Positions 8,741-12,380 of a stretch of 64,000 nucleotides of DNA are shown here, piece after piece; positions within the stretch are counted from its first letter, which is position 1, and each line of letters begins with the position of its first letter. The DNA comes from Nocardia arthritidis (GTDB taxonomy: Bacteria > Actinomycetota > Actinomycetes > Mycobacteriales > Mycobacteriaceae): NCBI RefSeq assembly GCF_011801145.1, contig NZ_CP046172.1, positions 3,472,001 to 3,536,000 on the forward strand, in the 5' to 3' direction. The notes beneath the pieces were generated by a model that saw only the letters and a program-made list of their open reading frames with translations, was not told where the DNA came from and did no database searches. Made by a program: the position numbers and the translations under genes.

Positions 8741-8811
8741 CGTTTGACCTGAAGATAAGTTGAGGTTGCAGCATGGTGGTCGTCCGAAGCCACGAAAACC
8801 GAAGGGCCACC

Positions 8812-9246
8812 ATGCTGTTCACCGACGCCGAATTCGAATACCTGAACACCCAACTGCTCGGCCGCCTGGCGACCGTGCAGTCGAACGGCACACTGCAGGT
8901 CAGTCCCGTGTCGTACCGATACAACGAGCAGACCGGCACGATAGACATCCGCGGCCTGTACATGTCGCGCAGCCAGAAGTTCAAAAACGTCGCCGCCAAC
9001 GGCCGAGTCGCATTCGTCGTCGACGACCTGCCGTCGATCCAGCCGTGGCGGGTACGCTGCCTGGAAATCCGTGGCCGCGGCGAAGCGCTCACCGCGCCAA
9101 CGGATTCCGCGTTCGAGCCGGACTCTAACGTGGACGGGGCGATCATTCGGATCCATCCGGAGAAGATCATCGGCTTCGGGATCGATGATCCGGACCGGGA
9201 TCCGCACGAGCTGGAGCCGAATATTCGTAAGGTGCCTGCGGTTTGA
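8812..9246 (+). CDS. PPOX-class F420-dependent flavin/deazaflavin oxidoreductase
   Basis: This 144-residue split-barrel protein has the F420-type signature of the pyridoxamine-phosphate-oxidase-like family: GRLATVQSNGTLQVSPVSYRY near the start, DIRGLYMSRSQKFKNV, then RVAFVVDDL and RVRCLEIRGRGEAL. Such proteins reduce diverse substrates with F420H2 in actinobacteria; the substrate here is unknown. The ATG at 8812 has GAAGGG 5 nt upstream, which makes it preferable to the in-frame ATG at 8773. It stands alone between the Emb gene and the convergent Rpn array. Confidence 0.8.
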   Translation: MLFTDAEFEYLNTQLLGRLATVQSNGTLQVSPVSYRYNEQTGTIDIRGLYMSRSQKFKNVAANGRVAFVVDDLPSIQPWRVRCLEIRGRGEALTAPTDSAFEPDSNVDGAIIRIHPEKIIGFGIDDPDRDPHELEPNIRKVPAV

Positions 9247-9257
9247 GGGGTGGCCGA

Positions 9258-9818
9258 CTACTCGGTGAAGACGTCGTCGAGGGTGGCGACGCTGAGGATG
9301 CGGCCAGTCCACGCTTCCAGTTGACCCAGGTTCGCTGCCTGAACTGTATCGGTGATGTGTTCGGGCAGAGTTCCGAACTTCACTGTCAGCAGGTCTAGCA
9401 GCGCCTCGGCTCGACCCTCGGCTTCCGCTTTGTCTGCGGCCCAAGTCTCGATCAGATTCTTCGCTCTGACATGCGCCTCGGCCCAAGCGCTGACTTCTTC
9501 TTCGCCGTAGATGATGTGTTCGAAGTTGCCGCCGATTAGGAATCGGTCCGTCCAGGTTTGGATCTGTTGTGCATCTGACCATCGGATATCGGCATCAAGC
9601 CAGAAGGGTAGTGGGCCGAACTTTATTAGCATCAGCGCCTCCAGAAGACGACTGTCGGCGCAAGGGAAAGGCTCGATCGGTGTCTGACTGTCGAGGATTT
9701 CGGCAAAATCAGGGTTGTTCGCGAACCGGCCTACCCATGTCCGCACCTGCTCTGTGTCTGCTGCGCGGACGCGGTGGATGGTCGATGCAGACAGTGGGCC
9801 AAACCTCAGCGTCAACAT
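9258..9818 (-). pseudogene. Tandem Rpn C-terminal units (degenerate array, distal part)
   Basis: The frame encodes three successive, diverged copies of the Rpn C-terminal unit, recognisable by the repeated pattern [KR]FG.LP, then .[DA]..Q...WT.RF/I, then an acidic end. The last unit ends TLDDVFTE, almost the same ending as the nuclease at 10460 (TLEDVFTQ). The middle unit also carries an odd EEEVSAWAEAHVRAKN segment. No nuclease domain precedes it. The frame stays open upstream past 9818, where CCGAGCCAAGGAG recurs near 9904-9916 as in the other units, but no convincing start follows. It may be a translated multi-unit protein or a relic; I lean to relic. Confidence 0.5.
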
Positions 9819-9973
9819 CGCGAGCAGAATCTCGGAATCGGTACGATCTGTGGAACCGCATGTGGCACAAAGCTTTTCAGTGTTAGGGAAAGCGATCTCC
9901 TTGGCTCGGGAGGCTTGACGATCGAGGACATGCTCGAGAGTAGCGGCTGTCGGTCGCCGACAGCACCAGATTT

Positions 9974-10207
9974 GCGGTCGAAGATGTCCGCAAGGGTCTT
10001 GGAGTCCAGAAATCGGTCCATCCAGGTCTCGAGCTGGTCGGGGCGGCGGTGCCCGACGGTGTTGGTGACTTCATCGGGTCGCGGCCCGAACGTCCGGGCC
10101 AGAAGTCGAAGCAACACAGATCCGAACTTCTCTTACAGCAGGTCGAGCAGCGTCTCGGCACGCTCTTCGATGCGCCCTTCGGCGAGGAGCCGGTCAGCGG
10201 TGGTCAT
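9974..10207 (-). pseudogene. Broken standalone copy of the Rpn C-terminal unit
   Basis: An ATG at 10207 preceded by AAAGAGG starts MTTADRLLAEGRIEERAETL, almost identical to residues of the full nuclease. An in-frame TAA at 10133-10135 stops it after 24 codons. The same frame then continues with recognisable unit sequence (RPDQLETWMDRFL and TLADIFD). The conserved start region and the single stop suggest recent loss, or survival only as a 24-residue peptide. Confidence 0.6.
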
Positions 10208-10235
10208 GGTGGCCTCTTTGGCTCGGGGCGGCAAC

Positions 10236-10436
10236 CTACGGAGCGAAGACCTCTTCGGGAGAGGCGGCATCGATGATCCGGTCCGTCCAGGTCCGCATTT
10301 GCTCTGGAGTCGCAGTGTCGATGAGGCGGGTGAACTGGTCGGGCACCGATTTGAACTTCAGGGCCAGCTGTCGACGGAGAGTGTCGGCGCGTCCTTTGGC
10401 TTCGCCTTTGGCGAGGAGTCGGTCAGCGGTGGTCAC
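10236..10436 (-). CDS. Standalone 66-residue Rpn C-terminal protein (RpnS-like, predicted antitoxin)
   Basis: GTG at 10436 has a perfect AAGGAGG (plus-strand 10442-10448) 5 nt upstream, and the gene starts 23 nt after the nuclease stop. The 66-residue product begins VTTADRLLAKGEAKGRADTL and ends EEVFAP. It is collinear and about half identical with the last 66 residues of the nuclease. In E. coli, short proteins made from internal starts in rpn genes (RpnS) bind and block the toxic nuclease (RpnL). By analogy this separate gene may encode an immunity partner or decoy; that is inference. It has no nuclease motif of its own. Confidence 0.7.
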   Translation of the reverse strand: MTTADRLLAKGEAKGRADTLRRQLALKFKSVPDQFTRLIDTATPEQMRTWTDRIIDAASPEEVFAP

Positions 10437-10459
10437 GAGGGCCTCCTTGGCTCGGGGAC

Positions 10460-10660
10460 CTATTGAGTAAAGACGTCCTCGAGGGTGTCGGCGTGCAGGA
10501 TGCGGCGAGTCCATATCCGCAATTGATCTGGGTCTGCTGCGTGAACTCTGTCGGCGATATCGGCGGGCACGGATTCGAACTTGTCTTGCAGCTGGTCGAG
10601 TAGCGTCTCGGCGCGCCCTTCGATGCGTCCTTCGGCGAGGAGCCGGTCAGCGGTGGTCAA
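10460..10660 (-). CDS. Intragenic C-terminal ORF within the Rpn nuclease gene (predicted RpnS-like product)
   Basis: Inside the nuclease gene and in the same frame, a TTG at 10660 is preceded 5 nt upstream by CAGGAGG (plus-strand 10666-10672), a strong Shine-Dalgarno that coding alone does not require. Initiation here would give 66 residues (LTTADRLLAEGRIEGR to DVFTQ). This is the same length as the separate downstream gene, which has the same surrounding bases but a GTG start. This nested arrangement matches the intragenic antitoxin design described for E. coli rpn genes. Confidence 0.55.
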   Translation of the reverse strand: MTTADRLLAEGRIEGRAETLLDQLQDKFESVPADIADRVHAADPDQLRIWTRRILHADTLEDVFTQ

Positions 10661-11431
10661 GAGGGCCTCCTGGGCTCGGGGACCGAGTTGGTCGGCGATG
10701 GGTTGCAGGTCCGCAACAGTGATATCGCTGACCCTAATAATGTAGTGCATGATGGTGACGAGATCGTCGTAGCCGCGGGGGCTGGAATTGATTGCGCGCA
10801 GATCCGTCATCAGTGGAAACAACATGTTTCGGTGACGACTGCCGGGGGCTTTCGTGTGCAGCACCAGCATGACTCGGATCACGGGTGTCAGATCGCGGGC
10901 GAGCAGAGTAGGCAGGTCGAGCGCCGCGACGTCATCAAGCAGGAACTGGAAGTGCGGTACATAAGGGCTCAAAGCCGTTCGCATCTCCGGGTCCAGGTCG
11001 AATAACTCGGCGAACTCGGTGTGGGTGTTCCAGCGACGGCCTTTGTGACTGCTGTGCACCACCAGCGGGATCACCGTCGGCAACGTTTCGGCGTTCGGAT
11101 TCGTATCTCGGTGGTGCTCCCAGATATCGACCATGTACCCGAGCAGCCGCAGCGGCATGAGCTTGTCGGTGCTGCTTTGGTGTTCGATCAGTATGTAGAT
11201 GTAAGCATCGTGGCCAGCCAGGCTGGTCCGGTACAGCACGTCGGCCTGGCGGCCCCGCAGGTTGTTCTTGACGAAGCTGGCCGATTGCAGTTCCAGCCCA
11301 GCCCAATCAATGCGCGCGGCAACGGCTTTCGGCAGGACTGCCTGTAGCTCGCTTGCGGCGTCGGCAGGTCGGCTCATGACCTGACGGAAGTAGGAGTCGT
11401 GCGGATTCGGGGGTGACGCGGACACACTCAT
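10460..11431 (-). CDS. Rpn family PD-(D/E)XK recombination-promoting nuclease / putative transposase
   Basis: This 323-residue protein starts with HDSYFRQVMSRPADAASELQ, the Rpn hallmark. The nuclease core follows: aspartate in GRQADVLYR, then YILIEHQSS, giving the D...ExQ form of the PD-(D/E)XK site at about residues 60-90. Family members in E. coli (RpnA-E) cut DNA, raise recombination and can act in phage defence. The ATG at 11431 is only 2 nt from AAAGG; the GTG two codons on (11425) has better spacing and may be the true start. The gene begins 28 nt after the ADP-ribosylglycohydrolase stop and is likely co-transcribed. Its final 66 residues are repeated several times downstream. Confidence 0.85.
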   Translation of the reverse strand: MSVSASPPNPHDSYFRQVMSRPADAASELQAVLPKAVAARIDWAGLELQSASFVKNNLRGRQADVLYRTSLAGHDAYIYILIEHQSSTDKLMPLRLLGYMVDIWEHHRDTNPNAETLPTVIPLVVHSSHKGRRWNTHTEFAELFDLDPEMRTALSPYVPHFQFLLDDVAALDLPTLLARDLTPVIRVMLVLHTKAPGSRHRNMLFPLMTDLRAINSSPRGYDDLVTIMHYIIRVSDITVADLQPIADQLGPRAQEALLTTADRLLAEGRIEGRAETLLDQLQDKFESVPADIADRVHAADPDQLRIWTRRILHADTLEDVFTQ

Positions 11432-11459
11432 AGCCTTTCGGTCGGCCGAGCGGGACAGG

Positions 11460-12380
11460 TCAGGCGTTCCTGGTGGCGATGCGTACGGCGAGGGTGACGA
11501 GGTCGTCGCCGCGCAGACCGGGGTAGCCGTGCAGTTTCTTGCGCCACTGTGCGGGGACGGCGCGTGCGCCCCAGCGGGCGCCGAGCAGTCCGCCAGCGAT
11601 GGCGGCGGTGGTGTCGGTGTCACCGCCTGCGCGGACGCACTTCTCGAGTGCGGCGGCGAGTTGTCCTGGGCCGGACGGGTCGGTGTTGGTGATGGCCCAC
11701 CATGCCGTTTGCAAGGCGTGCACTACCCAGCCGTTCTTCGGAAACAGTTGGGGCCGACCGGTTTCGGCCTCGTCGAGGCGCGGGAGCCAGTAGTCGGCGG
11801 CGGGGGAGGTCGCGGCGTATTCGCGGACGCCGTCGAAGGTGCCGTGCAGTACCGCGTGCCGGATGGCGTATGTCCAGATCTTGCATGCCTCGGTGGCGTG
11901 CTCGTCGTAGTGGGTGAGCATGCCGATGGCGCCCGCCATCCTGACGCATTCGTCCGCGTCGCGCAGGTAGGCGACGGCGACCGGCGCTGTCCGCATCAGC
12001 GAGCCGTTGCCGCCGGTCAGACCGGTCAGCGACATGGCGCGAGCCCACATATCCGCGGCGGATTGCGGACGCACCTCCAGCACCGTGCGGGTCTGGTTGC
12101 CGATGTCCTTCGGTCGTGAATCCCACCAGCGGACGAATCCGGCCGCGACGGCGTCGGGATCGATACCCGGTCCGGGTTCCGCGGCCAGCGCGACGGCCAC
12201 CGCCATCGATGTGTCGTCGGTCCATTCGCCGGGCTCCCAGCGGAAGGCCCCGCCGCCGATCATATCGATCGCGAGATCCGGGTCCGGATTGGTGAATTCG
12301 TAGCCCGCCCCCAGTGCGTCACCCGCCGCTGTGCCGAGCAGTACGCCCGCGGCGCGGTCCAGCTGTGCGTCGTCCAGCAT
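11460..12380 (-). CDS. ADP-ribosylglycohydrolase family protein
   Basis: The 306-residue protein matches the ARH/DraG fold. The metal-binding pattern is [14 protein letters not shown] near the N-terminus and [20 protein letters not shown] near the C-terminus, with [13 protein letters not shown] between. Enzymes of this family remove ADP-ribose from arginine or other side chains, or from nucleic acids. I take the ATG at 12380, which has GGGAGGGG about 7 nt upstream; the longer frame to 12746 lies over the promoter of the divergent ATPase gene. It is the first gene of an apparent operon with the Rpn nuclease, so a role in toxin control or defence is possible but unproven. Confidence 0.88.

Follow-up and report, generated by a model that had tools for sequence, protein, structure and literature searches.

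Downstream copies of a predicted intragenic antitoxin behind an rpn gene of Nocardia arthritidis, and their possible use as alternative C-termini

Introduction

Why should a toxin gene be followed by several copies of its own 3′ end? The question is raised by a locus of Nocardia arthritidis within a stretch of 64,000 nucleotides (contig NZ_CP046172.1, positions 3,472,001 to 3,536,000; this whole stretch is called the window below, and its own numbering is used), at which an rpn gene for a predicted nuclease is followed by repeated units resembling its C-terminal segment. An intragenic antitoxin, RpnS, has been found in Escherichia coli and Clostridioides difficile, and separate downstream copies of rpnS have already been published for the E. 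coli pairs rpnE-ypaA and rpnC-rpnCS, the ypaA protein having been detected in this species (Zhong et al., 2023, PMC10327210). That paper leaves unsettled for what reason the antitoxin segment recurs behind rpn genes. Besides it and Kingston et al. (2017, PMC5350276), no paper among those listed, in a search outside which lay supplements and most subscription papers, treats by its title or abstract multi-unit arrays, register mismatch of the copies, or the rpn genes of Nocardia.

The explanation that we put first, with moderate confidence and as slightly better than an even chance, is that this is a gene-within-gene toxin-antitoxin locus, RpnL/RpnS, whose downstream copies would mainly form a repertoire of alternative C-termini. 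A first-pass annotation of the window had offered two uses for such copies, extra immunity to the toxin and a reservoir of cassettes for swapping C-termini, and the comparisons below bear on both.

A probable internal start within rpn

The argument begins with three features.

10460..11431, minus strand: the rpn gene (RpnL), with a PF04754 nuclease domain and a C-terminal unit
10460..10660, minus strand: U1, the gene's own C-terminal unit and predicted intragenic RpnS, 66 codons from the TTG at 10660-10658
10666..10679, minus strand: the leader of U1, CCGAGCC followed by the Shine-Dalgarno sequence CAGGAGG, located by a leader search of the window

By its match to PF04754 (E 2.5e-45; 155 bits against a cut-off of 21), the product of this gene is an Rpn nuclease, for which DNA cleavage and toxicity are predicted, and the gene is the sole PF04754 match in the whole 10.0-Mb single-contig genome. 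Residues D64, E83, H84 and Q85 are invariant across 28 aligned Rpn proteins, that of the window included; the conserved D and E-x-Q residues are presumably those of the PD-(D/E)XK core. That PF04754 marks an ordinary transposase was considered and rejected, since the gene is present in a single copy and this view is argued against by Zhong et al. (2023, PMC10327210).

The in-frame arrangement CAGGAGG-5 nucleotides-TTG that had been described for this gene is indeed present (10672-10658) and would yield a 66-codon product. Its conservation was followed in 101 Nocardia rpn loci, namely that of the window and 100 others, which together are the 101 strongest among 125 PF04754 matches listed, the other 24 being weaker or truncated; a PF04754 match occurs in 73 of 150 Nocardia genomes. 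The C-terminus is complete in 91 of these loci, of which 87 of the usual length were aligned and four of odd length excluded. In all 87 aligned genes the column of the window's TTG holds a start codon (44 GTG, 42 ATG and one TTG), and the sole TTG is that of the window. The choice among synonymous codons points the same way. Where the start column encodes Val, the codon is GTG in 44 of 44 cases, compared with 42% for Val in the rest of these genes. Likewise, the Lys of the Shine-Dalgarno sequence is encoded by AAG in 73/73 (67% elsewhere) and the Glu by GAG in 83/84 (54% elsewhere). Because the 87 sequences are related, no probability is attached to this conservation, for which selection for AAGGAG and a start codon is the plainest explanation, in agreement with the intragenic RpnS of E. 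coli and C. difficile (PMC10327210). The intragenic start of the RpnS type that had been postulated for the window is supported by the start codons of all aligned homologs together with the synonymous conservation of the Shine-Dalgarno sequence. Codon-level selection alone would here back such a start across an actinobacterial genus.

Codon use also looks odd in the rpn leader before the Shine-Dalgarno sequence, in which Leu is encoded by CTC in 67 of 76 and Arg by CGA in 29 of 38 Nocardia genes, and the same pattern is kept in many non-coding leaders of copies. Some additional signal at the nucleotide level may lie in this leader.

The predicted product of U1 is modeled with high confidence (mean predicted local distance difference test score, pLDDT, 93.8) as a helical protein of four helices, the first of which is long (H3-28). 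A Foldseek search of this model against the PDB gave no significant match, and 7TH0, the structure of RpnA-S with its three-helix fold, was not among the 11 rows returned; the profile of the unit matched 7TH0 weakly, over residues 1-15 only (E 0.65). U1 (10463-10660) also resembles Pfam HSBP1 (PF06825) at 21.2 bits, below the cut-off of 28.6, a likeness that is probably one of coiled coils.

An array of units downstream of rpn

Downstream of rpn on the same strand, the profile of the Rpn C-terminal unit finds five more units, so that the array consists of U1 plus five and is longer than the three-copy array first described, although tandem copies are present as claimed.

10236..10436 (profile match 10242-10433), minus strand: U2, an intact separate copy of 66 codons with a GTG start
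10442..10455, minus strand: leader of U2, CCGAGCCAAGGAGG, from the leader search of the window
10133..10207 (profile match 10115-10207), minus strand: first part of U3, a broken copy with an ATG start and a TAA after 24 codons
10213..10226, minus strand: leader of U3, CCGAGCCAAAGAGG, from the same search
9977..10117, minus strand: second part of U3, from the unit profile, with a weak DUF4351 match
9896..9909, minus strand: a fourth leader, CCGAGCCAAGGAGA, with a Shine-Dalgarno sequence and without a start codon at the homologous position
9258..9818, minus strand: an open reading frame with the three fused units U4-U6 and a DUF4351 match; the open frame extends over 9258-10070
9723-9875, minus strand: U4, from the unit profile, beginning upstream of the ATG of the 9258-9818 frame
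9531-9650, minus strand: U5, from the unit profile
9264-9434, minus strand: U6, from the unit profile

U2 is the sole intact separate gene among the five. It begins 23 nucleotides past the rpn stop, carries AAGGAGG-5 nucleotides-GTG (10448-10434) with a consensus Shine-Dalgarno sequence, and is 52% identical to U1, with which it shares its length of 66 codons and its repeat length; the separate, half-identical GTG gene of the first-pass annotation was thus found as described. Their ratio of nonsynonymous to synonymous substitution rates (dN/dS) is 0.58 over 57 codons. The third copy was correctly recognized by its AAAGAGG-5 nucleotides-ATG (10219-10205), but it is broken. Over the 114-nucleotide block 10115-10228, U3 is 88% identical to the corresponding block of U1.

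The CCGAGCC block shared before the ribosome binding sites was also borne out. The pattern CCGAGCCMARGAG, which joins CCGAGCC to a Shine-Dalgarno sequence, has four matches in the 64-kb window, all of them within the array. Chance occurrence of this leader was rejected, as 100 shuffles of the sequence gave no match.

The array units appear to be DUF4351-like, weakly so for U1 and U3. The likeness to PF14261 (DUF4351; cut-off 25 bits) comes through the fused frame 9258-9818, which scores 31.6, whereas U1 (16.4 bits) and the second part of U3 (16.0) stay below the cut-off and U2 alone has no Pfam match. According to Zhong et al. (2023, PMC10327210), RpnS genes that stand on their own carry a DUF4351 annotation in some species.

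As described in that paper, E. coli RpnL/RpnS shares with the window a PF04754 gene, an internal start giving a C-terminal protein, a separate downstream copy, and a variable number of four-residue repeats after the first RpnS residues. The window differs in having five downstream units rather than one, three of them fused in one frame, a TTG internal start, a DUF4351-type second half and an actinobacterial host, and it is known from sequence alone. The first-pass proposal that the antitoxin segment had been duplicated with its leader into separate genes is supported here, and such duplication is already published for E. coli (PMC10327210).

Copies at other Nocardia loci

The first-pass annotation had called for a search of related genomes for rpn genes followed by arrays of C-terminal units. 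When all frames of the 101 loci were searched with a profile built from the 87 units, and 18 weak matches (independent E-value >1e-3) were dropped, 43 same-strand downstream matches remained at 29 loci, some copies being split in two matches. Of two further matches, one is upstream and falls within a second Rpn frame, and the other is on the opposite strand. An in-frame own unit is present at 95 loci, of which 26 have a downstream copy as well. Three loci in which no in-frame own unit was found (L094, L143 and L144) stand outside the counts of own unit plus copy; their downstream match is probably their own displaced end. At least two copies occur at five loci, namely L074 (three, two of them fused), L120 (two, fused), L131, L149 and the window. 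Frames with two or three fused units are thus known from the window, L074 and L120, and single-unit copies exist too.

The copies often look translatable. Among the 27 that reach the unit start and have an own partner, all carry ATG or GTG there (15 ATG and 12 GTG), and in 22 this is accompanied by a Shine-Dalgarno-like motif of 4 or more nucleotides. The dN/dS of own unit and copy is below 1 in all 24 computable pairs (0.07-0.98), a result that would partly reflect constraint on the own unit. Some pairs are nearly identical (98% at L085 and 99% at L153), and the frame of the L153 copy includes what is left of a second nuclease domain. The idea that duplication had a discrete boundary at the CCGAGCC block was rejected, because the upstream homology of own unit and copy ranges from 0 to 127 nucleotides; the longest stretch of pre-start rpn sequence lies before the copy of L073. 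No close ortholog of the window's array was found among the 100 other Nocardia rpn loci, the nearest nuclease domain being 63% identical.

Repeat lengths of copies and toxins

According to Zhong et al. (2023, PMC10327210), only RpnC-S with an equal number of four-residue repeats neutralises RpnC-L. If this rule holds generally, the repeat length of a copy would tell whether it can serve its neighbor. The repeat register was measured as the spacing between the start and the F conserved in the KFG motif, and 25 Nocardia pairs were compared after exclusion of copies that are truncated, contain stops or do not reach the start. Lengths fall on one four-residue ladder in 92/93 own units and 24/25 copies, as the variable repeat number in the first helix of RpnS would lead one to expect. 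Only four of the 25 pairs, the window's among them, have a copy as long as the own unit, and 4.12 are expected by permutation. Even the near-identical pairs are out of register, the L085 copy lacking one repeat and the L153 copy having one more.

The same was seen in E. coli. Sixteen rpnE regions were sampled, consisting of K-12 and 15 of 60 matches listed among 5,371 records; 13 of them have a downstream ypaA-like copy, and none of the 11 distinct combinations is equal in repeat length (at L172 the difference was read by eye, the anchor having failed). For rpnC, eight of 11 regions were measured, K-12 having no copy, the copy of L294 being frameshifted and L296 not being read; all eight pairs are distinct and again none is equal. 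Taken together, 0/19 distinct E. coli pairs match in the sample (11 rpnE/ypaA and eight rpnC). In six of the eight measured rpnC loci (L287-L293 and L295), the offset is not a multiple of four, so that gain or loss of repeats alone could not restore the register, and none of these eight copies starts at the codon homologous to the internal start of RpnC.

The copies thus appear not to be kept in register with the adjacent toxin, with no sign of matching. Because repeat lengths are unmatched and equal numbers are required by the published rule, most copies should fail to neutralise their neighbor. A regularity that can be tested is offered in two phyla: a separate copy rarely equals the neighboring toxin in repeat length.

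Apparent exchange between copies and toxin ends

In two E. coli regions without a separate copy (L173 and L174), rpnE ends with a ypaA tail and lies 40 bp before yfaU, as ypaA does. Zhong et al. (2023, PMC10327210) mention such a fusion, in which the nuclease part is joined to the separate copy and the latter is lost as a gene of its own; this is a further likeness between E. coli and the loci considered here. Comparable pairs occur in Nocardia. The loci of N. kruczakiae (L068) and N. mikamii (L113) match at 88% in their nuclease parts, and from before the unit through the flank, over 4.2 kb, L068 is collinear with the downstream copy and flank of L113 at 93.6%; the own unit of L113 is 76.9% identical to that of L068. 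By the approximately unbiased (AU) test, the own unit and the copy of L113 are not sisters (p 3.8e-5). Similarly, the own unit of L097 is 88.3% identical to the copy of L089 and 82.7% to the own unit of L089, and grouping of own unit with own unit is rejected for this pair (AU p 0.023). The suggestion that C-termini are swapped as cassettes therefore has synteny and sequence in related loci on its side, while the tree tests are mixed.

Orphan units

Units away from strong Rpn matches were examined at 31 loci, 20 of which were picked by eye among the matches listed. At one of them (L043) the contig breaks off just upstream, and the remaining 30 orphan-candidate loci were counted. Nine have nuclease remnants and 21 have no nuclease domain detectable within 1.5-2 kb. 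ATG or GTG stands at the homologous codon in 19 of these 21 loci, many of which have AAGGAGG; the sample was found by score, which favours intact frames. Two genomes (G007 and G112) have an orphan unit and no PF04754 match.

Orphan units with a Shine-Dalgarno sequence and a start, and with no nuclease nearby, include those of L037, L344, L057, L060 and L327, among others. Tandem orphan pairs occur in L037 and L344, the second L344 unit having no start at the homologous codon. A genus-wide tally of units (125/150 genomes) was not used, since it includes many weak matches, which may stem from helical proteins of other kinds.

What the copies may be for

According to the explanation put first, one gene would give both the full-length nuclease RpnL and, from the internal TTG, the 66-residue antitoxin RpnS. 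The segment for this antitoxin would have been copied downstream repeatedly, leader and ribosome binding site included, and recombination between copies would join the nuclease domain to a downstream unit. A single recombination would then change toxin and internal antitoxin together, so that the pair stays matched. Most copies would be poor antitoxins for their neighbor, from which they differ in repeat number, and, when translated, may already neutralise the variant they would create. A repertoire is favored over extra immunity because most copies should not neutralise their neighbor by the repeat-matching rule, and it fits both the exchange events and the absence of matching. If this is true, the copies are parts for changing specificity and not spare antidotes.

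Comparison among loci shows the conserved start and Shine-Dalgarno sequence, translatable copies, the lack of repeat matching and toxin ends that match a relative's downstream copy. Translation in this strain, neutralisation of the toxin, a role against phage and exchange as the selected function are inferred. As judged from sequence comparison, the new elements are the copies at 26/95 Nocardia loci, the multi-copy loci, the register mismatch, the toxin ends matching a relative's copy and the nuclease-less orphans.

Several observations weigh against a repertoire. The rpn frame of L113 is short (236 amino acids) and part of its nuclease domain is missing; L097 and the L089 copy form no clade in the best tree (their grouping is not rejected, p 0.295); and the tree tests are not significant for L070/L074 (p 0.12) or for L068 with the own-unit lineage (p 0.088). 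The units of L131 form their own clade, and 17/25 copies have their nearest relative among the units of their own locus. The direction of exchange is also ambiguous, as either promotion of a copy to the toxin end or arrival of a new end that displaced the former one may have taken place. Moreover, equal lengths are no rarer than chance in Nocardia, which gives no sign of selection for mismatch.

The rival explanations are not all exclusive of one another or of a repertoire. Under extra immunity, U2 would be translated on its own and act as another antitoxin of the same RpnL. Within the window this is possible: U2 is intact, lies close behind the rpn stop with a consensus Shine-Dalgarno sequence and shares the repeat length of U1, which itself counts against a repertoire, and the ypaA protein has been detected in E. 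coli (PMC10327210). As a general account it is unlikely, however, given an identity of U1 and U2 of just 52%, the neutralisation of RpnC by equal repeat numbers only (PMC10327210), the 4/25 equal pairs in Nocardia, where 4.1 are expected, and the 0/19 in E. coli. Immunity might instead be directed at other Rpn toxins, resident or incoming, against which separate and orphan units would guard in the manner of orphan immunity genes. The 21/30 orphan-candidate loci without a nuclease domain nearby, 19 of them with ATG or GTG, and the two genomes with a unit and no PF04754 match are what this leads one to expect; yet the orphan sample is biased to intact copies, having been found by score and picked by eye among the matches listed, the window's genome has a single rpn gene, and RpnA and RpnB antitoxins gave no cross-protection in the case tested (PMC10327210), so that protection of this kind seems improbable as well. 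A variant that combines immunity with exchange is rather unlikely too: copies with a non-resident repeat number would pre-immunise the cell against the variant that arises by recombination, the C-terminus would change in one step without self-poisoning, and orphans would give the same immunity without a toxin.

The copies could also be neutral debris, formed by tandem duplication of a recombination-prone 3′ end and decaying without function. As this would predict, and to the disadvantage of a repertoire, four of the five window copies (U3-U6) are broken or start-less, and elsewhere the L079 copy is truncated, that of L129 contains stops and those of L116 and L125 lack a start codon at the homologous position. 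The dN/dS of U1 and U2 indicates only weak constraint, and copies are unequal in length, in spacing and in how far their homology reaches upstream. Nevertheless, ATG or GTG is kept in 27/27 copies reaching the start and a Shine-Dalgarno-like motif in 22/27, dN/dS is below 1 in 24/24 pairs, in part from constraint on the own unit, and orphan units outlast the nuclease domain, all of which makes debris a rather unlikely account. Displacement is somewhat improbable to a similar degree. In the toxin-tip arrays of Rhs and contact-dependent inhibition (CDI) systems, displaced tips and orphan immunity genes occur, and tips are exchanged by recombination at a shared upstream segment. By analogy, a separate copy would be a former toxin C-terminus pushed downstream by a new end. 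As in Rhs/CDI, alternative C-termini stand in tandem behind one toxin gene; rpn sequence from before the start precedes some of the copies (up to 127 nucleotides, L073), and in L113 the own unit and the copy are not sisters (AU p 3.8e-5), the sequence of the copy being the toxin end in L068. The near-identical pairs of L085 and L153, however, are plainly local duplications. The C-terminal unit here, unlike that of Rhs/CDI, would itself be the antitoxin, so that toxin and antitoxin change together, and there is no secretion. Finally, the internal start and the units could be meaningless features of an ordinary coding sequence. As a start codon TTG is weak, and no promoter-like site was found within 9000-11900, but the 87/87 start codons, the synonymous conservation and the profile matches to all five copies leave this reading scarcely credible.

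Neighboring genes and sequence context

The search for promoter-like (sigma-70) sites found none within 9000-11900, where 0.4 is expected by shuffling, and a sigma-70 promoter for U2 was rejected accordingly. The PADLOC-DB models of known anti-phage systems (library of 2023) matched none of four proteins. The G+C content is 57-64% over 9.0-11.5 kb and 63-70% in the remaining 500-base segments of 5-16 kb, which is in line with a horizontal origin without proving it. A gene for a PPOX-class F420-dependent oxidoreductase lies at 8806-9246 (TIGR04023, above cut-off; six matches in the genome including itself). Its use as an anchor for comparing flanking synteny was abandoned, as identity to its best relatives in 40 genomes does not exceed 58%. 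Directly upstream of rpn and on the same strand is an ADP-ribosylglycohydrolase gene at 11460-12380 (PF03747, E 3e-57).

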